A DNA stretch of 64,000 bases from Halorussus marinus (GTDB taxonomy: Archaea; Halobacteriota; Halobacteria; Halobacteriales; Haladaptataceae): positions 1 to 64,000 of the forward strand of contig NZ_SBIV01000005.1 in NCBI RefSeq assembly GCF_004765795.1. The letters are read 5' to 3'. The notes under the pieces are model-generated. The model was not told the origin of the DNA. It worked only from the letters and a program-made list of their open reading frames with translations, and did no database searches. This document shows positions 1,499 to 18,095 of this stretch, one piece after another. Numbering within the stretch: position 1 is the stretch's first letter; each line of letters starts with the position of its first letter. Both the position numbers and the translations under genes were made by a program.

Positions 1499-4177
<2,679 letters not shown>

Positions 4178-14328: not shown

Positions 14329-14919
14329 TCAGGCCGCCTCTCTCATCTCCTCGTACTGCTGTTCGAATCGCGCCAGACAGGACGAACAGCAAAACTGGTA
14401 GAGGTCGCCGTCGATCCGGGTCGACTCGCCCTCGCTGGTGACGGTGTTGCCACACTCGTCACACTCGAGGGCGAACTCCGCGCCCTCGGGTTCTGGCGAC
14501 CACGACGACTCCGCGAGCAGGTCGACGTCGTACGACCGGATCGCGTCGGTGTCGAGCGAGTCCGCGAGTAGCGGCTCGACCGCGCCGTCTTCGAGTCTGG
14601 CGTGGAACACCACCCGGCCGTCGGCGGTGACGAAGACGTGTTCGACCGAGTCGAGCGCTTCGACGCGCTCGCGGACGTCGGCGACCCGACCGGGTTCGAT
14701 CCGGAGGTCGACGAGCACCGCGATCCCTTCCGAGAGGAGCGAGCGATCGAGATCGACGGTGAACTGCTGGATGACGCCGAGTTCGCGCATGCGGTCGATG
14801 CGGTCGGAGACCGTCGGCGGCGAGAGTTCTACAGCGTCCGCGATCTCGTTGTACGGTCGGCGGGCGTTCGCGACGAGCAACTGGAGAATTTCGAGGTCGG
14901 TTTCGTCGAGTTCCCTCAT
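14329..14919 (-). CDS. Lrp/AsnC regulator with C-terminal TRASH metal domain
   Basis: 196-residue regulator. Residues 1-60 are an AsnC-type helix-turn-helix (LDETDLEILQLLVANARRPYN), about 65-140 are the Lrp ligand/oligomer domain, and about 150-196 form a TRASH domain with ECDECG, then CCSSC, the paired cysteines that bind metal. In Halobacterium a protein of this architecture senses copper and controls the CopA-type exporter. The copA gene here is 10 kb away, so copper sensing is a good inference. It is transcribed alone between two rightward genes. Confidence 0.88.
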   Translation of the reverse strand: MRELDETDLEILQLLVANARRPYNEIADAVELSPPTVSDRIDRMRELGVIQQFTVDLDRSLLSEGIAVLVDLRIEPGRVADVRERVEALDSVEHVFVTADGRVVFHARLEDGAVEPLLADSLDTDAIRSYDVDLLAESSWSPEPEGAEFALECDECGNTVTSEGESTRIDGDLYQFCCSSCLARFEQQYEEMREAA

Positions 14920-15562: not shown

Positions 15563-16300
15563 TCAGTCGCCGGTCGCTTCGGGGGTCGGACCGTCGAACT
15601 CGGGCGACCGAACGGGGTCGGCGCGGTCGTCGGCGCGCTCGGCTTCGTCCAGCGCGCGGATGTTCGCGAACAGGAAGCCGGCGAAGCCGACGCGGATCAG
15701 CACCGAGATGTAGTGGTTGATGAGAATGTCTCCGAACTTCGTGAACGCTCCCGCGTCCGAGATGAACGCGTACGCGATGAGCATCGCGAGGAGGAAAAGC
15801 AGGAGGTTTCGGGCCTTCCAGTGGAGCAGTCGCCGATCGGCCGAGCGGTTTTGGGCCGTCTCCCAGATCGGCCCCACGAACAGGTACGCGACGAAAACGT
15901 GCCCGCCAATGACGATCAGCGTCGAGACGAGCGTCACCAGACCGCCCGCTCTGGCGCCGAAGTTGAACGCAAGGACCTGCACTGCGGGGGCGGCGGTCAC
16001 GATCGCGAGGTTCCGGCGCTTCGCACCGGCGAGCTTCGCGGTGACGAACCACAGTAACGAGTAGGCGAACACGTCGTTGGCGACGTTCGGCAGGGCGAAA
16101 AAGTAGCCGTGAGCCGAAAACGCGCCCACGCCGGCGGCCGCGAGGAAACTGCACACGGTACTGACGGCCATGACCGCCACGACGAGCCGACAGTAGTGAT
16201 GGAGCCGCTGTGGAATCCGGCGGAGCCACAGGAGCAAGACCGCGAGGGTGACCGCGTACGCGACGCCGCCGACCGCGTACAGGGTCGGTTCGTCAATCAT
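15563..16300 (-). CDS. microbial opsin homologue lacking the retinal lysine
   Basis: 245-residue seven-helix membrane protein of the type I rhodopsin family. The last two helices align with bacteriorhodopsin: helix F begins with the shared RN, and helix G contains [12 protein letters not shown] where rhodopsins have AKVGFG. The Schiff-base Lys is replaced by Arg203 (codon CGC at 15692-15694), the helix G counter-ion Asp by Ser199, and the Trp/Tyr/Pro residues lining the retinal pocket in helix F are gone. It should not bind retinal covalently. Its ATG lies eight bases inside the end of the transducer gene upstream, the same order as htrI-sopI and htrII-sopII. Lysine-less opsins have been noted in haloarchaea; function is unknown. 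Confidence 0.82.
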
Positions 16301-17891
16301 CGCTTCCCCCCACTGGCGCGCCGGACGGAGACGCGGCGATCGGGTCGTCTTCGTCGCCGGAGTCTCGGGTCTCGAACGAACTCAGCATCTCGCGGAGGTC
16401 CGCGGTCCGGTCGGCGAGCGTATCGGTTCGCTCGCGGACGTCGGCCATCGTCGCCGCGGTCTCGTCGGCGGTCGCCGCGAGGTCCTCGGATCGGTCCGCG
16501 ACCTCCACGGCGACCTCGCGGACGGTCTCGACCGCGACCGCGACCTCCTCGGTCGCGGCCGCACCGTCGTCGGTCGCGCGGTTGATCTCCGCCATCGCGT
16601 CGTCGACGTCGGTGACCGTGTCGGTCAGTCCCTGCAGGGTCTGGCCCGTCGCCGTCACGGTTTCGACGCTCTCGTCGATGCGACGTCTGGTGTCGTCCAT
16701 CTCCCGAGTCACGTCGGTGACGTCGCCCCGAACGGTCTCGATGATACTGCTTATCTGATCGACCGCGTCCTGGGTCTCGGCCGCGAGTTGCTTGATTTCG
16801 TCCGCGACGACCGCGAAGCCGTCGCCTTCAGCGTCGGCGCGGGCGGCCTCGATGTTGGCGTTCAGCGCCAGCAGGCCGGTCTGCTCGGCGATGTCGTCGA
16901 TGAGTCCCGTCGTCTCGCCGACTTCTTCCATCCGTTCGTCGAGGTTGTCGACCAGCCGTCCGAGTTCGGTCACCGCCTCCTCGATCCGGTCGATCGCGTC
17001 GATCGCCTCCTCGGCGCGCTCGGCGCCGGCCTCGCCGGCCTCGGCGGCGTCGGTCGCTCGGTCGGCGACCTCGTCGGTCGTCGAGGCGACTTCCTCGATC
17101 GTCGCCGACAGGTCGTTGGCCTCCTCGACCGCGCTTTCGAGCTGGTCGGCCTGACTCGCGACGTCGTCGGCCAGCGACCGGATGTCCGCGGCGAGCGACT
17201 CGTGGCGCCGCTCGACCGCCGCGGCGTCGTCCGCGACCGCGGTGCTCGTGGTCTCGACCTCGGCGGCGAACGCGATGATCTCCTCGACGGTGGCGGACAG
17301 ATCGGTCGCCATCTCCTCGTAGGCGGCGCCAATCCGTTCGATCGCCTCGATGTCGGTGTCCGTGTCGAGGCGGTGGCTGAAGTCGCCCTCGGCGGCCGAG
17401 GCCATCGCGTCGCCGACGTCCTCGGCCCGTTCGAGCAGGCGTTCGCTTCGCTCTTCGGCTTCCCGCTGGGCGGCCTCCGCGCGCTCTTGAGCGCGCTCGG
17501 CCTCTTCGCGGGCGGTCTCGGACTCCGCGAACGCCTCGTCGAGCGATCGCCGCATGCTGTCGAACGACGCCGCCAGACGGCCGAACTCGTCGGGGCGGTC
17601 GCTCTCGGGGGTGACGTCGAGATCGCCCGACTCGATGGCTTCGGCCGCGGCGGTGAGGTTCCGGAGTTCGACGCCGACGCTCCCGGCCAGAACGATACCG
17701 AGCAGACCGATATGAAGCGCGAGGACGAACAGCGTGGCGGCGACCGCCTGCCCCCCGGTCGCGCCGACGCGCGAGACGTCCATCGCGAAGAGGACGCCGA
17801 ACACGACGGTCGCCCCGAGCGCGACCCCCAGCGCCGCGCCGATTCGGCGGCTGTACTTCTGCAAGATCCAGTCTACGGATACAGTTGTCAT
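16293..17891 (-). CDS. Htr-type methyl-accepting transducer
   Basis: 532-residue membrane transducer for taxis. Two membrane helices (about residues 18-40 and 52-75) are joined by a very short outer loop of about 11 residues, as in the rhodopsin partners HtrI and HtrII, so there is no ligand-binding domain. HAMP-like segments follow, then a long coiled coil and the signalling tip [20 protein letters not shown] with [16 protein letters not shown]. The ATG at 17891 follows a TATA element at 17919-17928. The next gene is the lysine-less opsin, overlapping by eight bases; a complex of the two is the natural inference. Confidence 0.9.
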
Positions 17892-17918
17892 TTGCCAAAA
17901 CCGTATTCCCAAATTCAA

Positions 17919-17928
17919 CTTTTAAACT
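17919..17928 (-). promoter_or_regulatory. TATA element of the htr-opsin operon
   Basis: AAGTTTAAAA on the minus strand, about 33 bases before the transducer ATG. The rest of 17892-18095 is AT-richer than average and holds no gene. Confidence 0.55.
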
Positions 17929-18095
17929 TTTGGACCTAAGTATCAGACGAGATAATAGACTCTATATCCGAGGACTGGACGGATGAACGGGGGACTTCGA
18001 GGCGCCCGTTTCGAGGCCGTTAGCACCGCGTGGTCGGTTGGTCGCCGGGCGGCGTCGACGAATCGGCGAGTCCGAACCAGTTACGCACCGCCGTG

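Follow-up and report, generated by a model that had tools for sequence, protein, structure and literature searches.

The DNA analysed here (hereafter the window) is a stretch of 64,000 nucleotides from Halorussus marinus (contig NZ_SBIV01000005.1, positions 1 to 64,000), in which we characterized a pair of overlapping genes on the reverse strand. One of them (16293..17891) encodes an HtrII-like transducer of 532 aa with two membrane helices, a HAMP domain and an MCP signalling domain, and the other (15563..16300) encodes an opsin-related protein (ORP) of the arginine type, 245 aa long and with seven predicted helices. The transducer is read from an ATG at 17891 to a stop at 16293 and the opsin ATG lies at 16300, so that the transducer stop and the opsin start overlap by exactly 8 bases (16293..16300, reverse strand, ATGATTGA), the length given in an earlier note that was made from the letters alone. 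The likely promoter of the pair, read by eye on the same strand (17892..17940), is an A/T-rich TTTAAAA ~40 bases upstream of the transducer's ATG. Near the pair lies a gene (14329-14919, reverse strand) for an Lrp-like regulator whose C-terminal tail is rich in cysteine, and in the wider synteny this Lrp-like gene is the only one to recur near the pair, within ~6 kb, at three same-genus loci.

The ORP retrieved sensory rhodopsin II (SRII) of Natronomonas pharaonis as its top match among PDB sequences (phmmer, E 1.4e-7), at an identity of ~20%. It did not score above the curated cut-off of the Pfam family Bac_rhodopsin (PF01036), which was found in three other genes of the same genome, and automatic annotation may therefore overlook the ORP gene. 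An AlphaFold2 model (mean pLDDT 72.8, pTM 0.69), built from a two-row alignment and compared at the level of the fold, had as its top Foldseek match SRII from its complex with HtrII, 1h2s (E 4.4e-7, TM 0.70/0.76), and it superposed on microbial rhodopsins with Z ~21 and an rmsd of ~3 Å over ~210 residues. Sequence and fold searches thus agree on SRII as the nearest solved relative, in keeping with the first assignment of the gene to the opsin family. In the transducer, the HAMP (1.4e-13) and MCPsignal (2.4e-37) domains follow hydrophobic helices at residues ~16-42 and ~46-76 with the external loop nearly absent, and its best solved relative is HtrII of N. pharaonis (E 1.8e-10); hydrophobicity, domains and this match bear out the two-helix, loop-poor transducer in htr-sop order that had been read at the outset. 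Paired htr-sop genes with a HAMP/MCP transducer are a trait of sensory rhodopsins (SRI/SRII) that the window pair shares, whereas the retinal lysine in helix G is such a trait that the ORP lacks.

The host genome encodes archaellins, CheA and ~11 MCPs, so the means for a taxis output are there. A beta-carotene-cleavage homologue and three canonical opsins are encoded as well, and retinal is therefore probably made in the host. All three canonical opsins (L001, L002, L003) carry the lysine; L002 lies next to a transducer of its own and is consistent with a sensory rhodopsin, and residues of L001 and L003 resemble those of proton and chloride pumps.

The retinal site of the opsin-related protein

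Residue correspondences between the ORP and SRII were taken from a 102-row alignment. Both this alignment and the phmmer match place R203, encoded by CGC at 15692..15694 (reverse strand), at the Schiff-base lysine (K205 in N. pharaonis SRII, K216 in BR), and codon and alignment together uphold the arginine that the earlier note had reported there. The same holds for Ser199, which aligns with D201, the helix G counter-ion, and for the missing aromatic residues of helix F, where the ORP has L171, L174 and A178 in place of W171, Y174 and W178. Further replacements place N75 at D75, Q108 at V108 and a threonine at F127, and Asp76 (codon at 16073..16075, reverse strand), the proposed partner of Arg203, at W76. 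The SRII signalling residue Tyr199 is kept as Y197. At SRII position 189 the ORP has a threonine (Thr187), as do four same-genus orthologues, unlike most other ORP rows of the alignment, which carry Asp; Asp189 is reported to be strongly, though not universally, conserved among ORPs (PMC4915679).

Another lysine in helix G that could bind retinal, which would have overturned the first reading of the gene, was rejected, as helix G (188-213) contains no lysine. The loss of covalent retinal binding in the ORP is well supported by these alignments, and its pocket cannot accommodate retinal in the manner known from rhodopsins. In its gene order, its fold and its two-helix transducer without external domain, as well as in the position of the Tyr-transducer contact and the basic residues with which helix F begins, the pair is like SRII/HtrII of N. 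pharaonis, while unlike that SRII the window ORP has neither the Schiff-base lysine nor D201 nor the aromatic pocket.

Homologues, gene arrangement and selection

Becker et al. 2016 described 48 haloarchaeal ORPs, in which group A has Arg for Lys, with 15/16 beside HAMP/MCP genes, and group B has hydrophobic residues in place of Lys (PMC4915679). The earlier note had lysine-less haloarchaeal opsins as merely noted; they do exist, but those of the arginine type with a linked transducer have been described as a family. The window ORP is like the published group A in its Lys-to-Arg replacement, in W76D, Y174L, W178A and F127T, in its kept Tyr199, in its adjoining HAMP/MCP gene and in being nearest to sensory rhodopsins (PMC4915679). 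It differs from the Halorubrum-type members of group A, of which Met108 is typical, in having Gln108, as does most of its subclade; we therefore treated Met108 as a subgroup trait and not as clade-defining, and it has been reported as a group-A residue, not as a membership criterion (PMC4915679). By clade, Lys-to-Arg replacement, lost pocket and adjoining transducer, the window ORP can be assigned from its sequence to group A of the haloarchaeal ORPs. The retinal lysine is likewise missing from Rh-noK of betaproteobacteria and from freshwater flotillin-associated rhodopsins, which, unlike the window ORP, are proton-pump relatives without transducers and for which the literature describes separate lysine losses (PMC10308929).

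Orthologues are present in 4 of the 17 other genomes of the genus (55-59% identity), and a profile built from the same-genus orthologues found many further relatives across the class; a search of genome contigs gave a single named relative, in Halobacterium sp. TGN-42-S1, and a search for viral copies in IMG/VR gave 13 pattern matches, none of them a relative. The alignment and tree that had been proposed as a check separated all 79 lysine-less sequences from the rest by a branch whose SH-aLRT is 100, as a single clade beside the sensory rhodopsins. The deep order of the groups in this tree is uncertain because the tree search was short and some branches are long. Arg at the place of SRII 205 is invariant in 54/54 group-A homologues, group A (n = 54) being the arginine-bearing rows of its clade, inside which only one row, L063, carries another residue. 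Group A (n = 54) is likewise invariant at K162, R164 and N165, where helix F begins, and groups A and B are so for the Tyr at SRII 199; at these positions the conservation of helix residues that the earlier note had asked about is found.

Whether lysine-less opsins elsewhere also adjoin htr genes was a further question of that note, and among the arginine-type homologues a transducer lies directly upstream in 56/59, with one of the remaining three at a contig end. The overlap is 8 bases in 38 and 4 bases in 16 of the 59. In SRII-HtrII we take N74 of HtrII to be the partner of Y199. Of the 69 transducers matched by a motif, 48 have N at this place and 21 have H, and the window transducer has His60 there; of this contact the 2016 study says only that SRII Y199 bonds with the transducer (PMC4915679). 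Sequence, gene order across many genomes and conserved contact residues make the pairing of receptor and transducer well supported. Selection on the ORP is purifying, with dN/dS <1: for the closer pairs, NG86 gave 0.19-0.47 and YN00, where it converged, 0.06-0.22.

Several relatives depart from the arrangement in the window. The highly diverged ORP L063 (2929-3732, reverse strand) has Ser in place of the lysine and has lost the helix-C acid, yet its gene still overlaps a transducer by 4 bases. A third arginine-type set (L069, L074, L076, L078, L081; ~base 3000 each), which stands nearer to SRII than do groups A and B, keeps Asp/Glu75, Arg72, Tyr174 and D201, and its transducers show a 4-base overlap and mostly a stretch of ~220 residues between the two membrane helices. 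At L068, L072 and L082, two group B (hydrophobic-type) ORP genes flank a single transducer in the order ORP-transducer-ORP, which suggests two receptors per transducer.

The association of the arginine with a helix-C acid

Light acts on SRII by breaking a pair formed between Asp75 of helix C and the charged Schiff base that K205 carries. Helix-C positions 75/76, at which the SRII Schiff base meets its counter-ion, hold an Asp or Glu at one or the other place in 58/59 sequences with Arg at 205, and such an acid is absent from all 20 sequences with neither Lys nor Arg at 205, in which leucine, phenylalanine, valine or serine replaces the lysine. Of the arginine-type sequences, 30 carry the acid at 76 alone, 12 at 75 alone and 16 at both places; 1 has it at neither, this acid-less exception being L015, whose membrane domain is intact. 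On a tree built without columns 75/76 the acid switched position at least 10 times, and both places were empty only once; the shortage of sequences with neither acid has a Fisher p of 3e-4, uncorrected for relatedness. The joint loss of Arg and acid comes down to ~2 independent events, and a tree-aware test to only two independent pairs, which makes the Arg-acid switch suggestive, not proved. Further polar or charged gains in group A are R109 (34/54), D/E/N/Q113 and E/Q198. In the 2016 study W76D is described as the loss of an aromatic residue, and neither 'salt bridge' nor 'counterion' is a word of its main text (PMC4915679). The pattern across these sequences is suggestive of a buried Arg-acid pair that would replace the photochemical switch in arginine-type ORPs.

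Possible functions of the pair

We consider it fairly probable that the ORP and its transducer form a single taxis receptor complex that resembles SRII-HtrII in its build but works without photochemistry. The arginine-type ORP would pack against the two-helix transducer in the membrane, and since an external sensing domain is missing from the transducer, the ORP is the likely sensor. Arg203, in the lysine's place, would pair with Asp76, the neighbour of the old counter-ion, within a pocket that has become polar where it was once aromatic. The Arg203-Asp76 pair could then be disturbed by membrane potential, by pH, by an ion or by a small ligand that is polar or charged. The disturbance would shift helices F and G, and TM2; the signal would pass from Tyr197 to His60 of the transducer, at the place of the Y199-N74 contact of SRII-HtrII, and run from there to HAMP, CheA and the archaellum. 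Complex formation, switch and taxis output are steps that we infer. A stimulus other than light is the most likely input to the pair, in line with the taxis to non-light stimuli already proposed for ORPs in 2016 (PMC4915679); of the non-light taxis receptor put forward in the earlier note, the pairing and the loss of covalent retinal are thus the supported parts.

A role in light reception would require retinal or a carotenoid to be held non-covalently, or absorption to be borrowed from a neighbouring rhodopsin. The host does have canonical opsins and a beta-carotene-cleavage homologue, and opsin mutants without the lysine are able to function with aminated retinal analogues (PMC4915679), but the pocket aromatics are lost (W76D, W171L, Y174L, W178A, F127T), expression of two ORPs with retinal in excess gave no retinal absorbance, with no peak at 480-580 nm, and the last genes of retinal synthesis are likewise missing from ORP species that have no canonical opsin (PMC4915679), so we regard this explanation as very improbable. 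Somewhat easier to entertain, though still unlikely, is an ORP that itself senses nothing and acts as a structural or constitutive regulator, fixing the state of the transducer or tuning receptors of the array. No ligand is known, and the loss of one function with partner contact kept would look alike; against this, the pocket did not drift but gained conserved polar or charged residues (76, 108 or 109, 113, 205), and the pair recurs in many genera.

The gene is divergent and unmatched by its Pfam family, as a decaying sensory rhodopsin or one with a misread lysine codon might be, yet the chance of either is negligible, given the arginine in 54/54 of group A, the intact frames, the near-fixed overlap and a dN/dS well under 1. 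A read error, the other possibility that could have undone the first reading, is excluded because of this invariance, and read error and pseudogene were both rejected on Arg invariance and dN/dS. Within the favoured reading of a non-light taxis receptor complex, we can go further only tentatively: arginine-type ORPs may be chemoreceptors that arose from rhodopsins, in which the pair of Schiff base and counter-ion that light breaks became an Arg-acid pair broken by a ligand or ion and driving the same transducer, a proposal that we rate as possible but short of probable.

The arginine-type, transducer-linked ORP class and the idea of non-light taxis were already known in 2016, when ORP transcription was also shown and ORP protein was undetectable in native cells (Becker et al., PMC4915679). 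In the open literature searched we found no later experimental work on haloarchaeal ORPs, no test of the 2016 hypothesis, and no ORP for which a stimulus, a phenotype or a solved structure is reported. Added here are the single well-supported lysine-less clade, the near-fixed 8- or 4-base overlap, the kept SRII-HtrII contact and the Arg-acid pattern. The Arg-acid pair offers a concrete site for mutagenesis, and the presence in one genome of a canonical sensory rhodopsin beside its transducer and of the ORP pair would make a direct comparison possible. Should chemicals or ions prove to be what ORPs sense, microbial rhodopsins would not be light devices alone, and the membrane coupling that reads a photon could also read a ligand; chemoreceptor ORPs would then parallel, among microbes, the ligand-gated receptors that are relatives of animal opsins.
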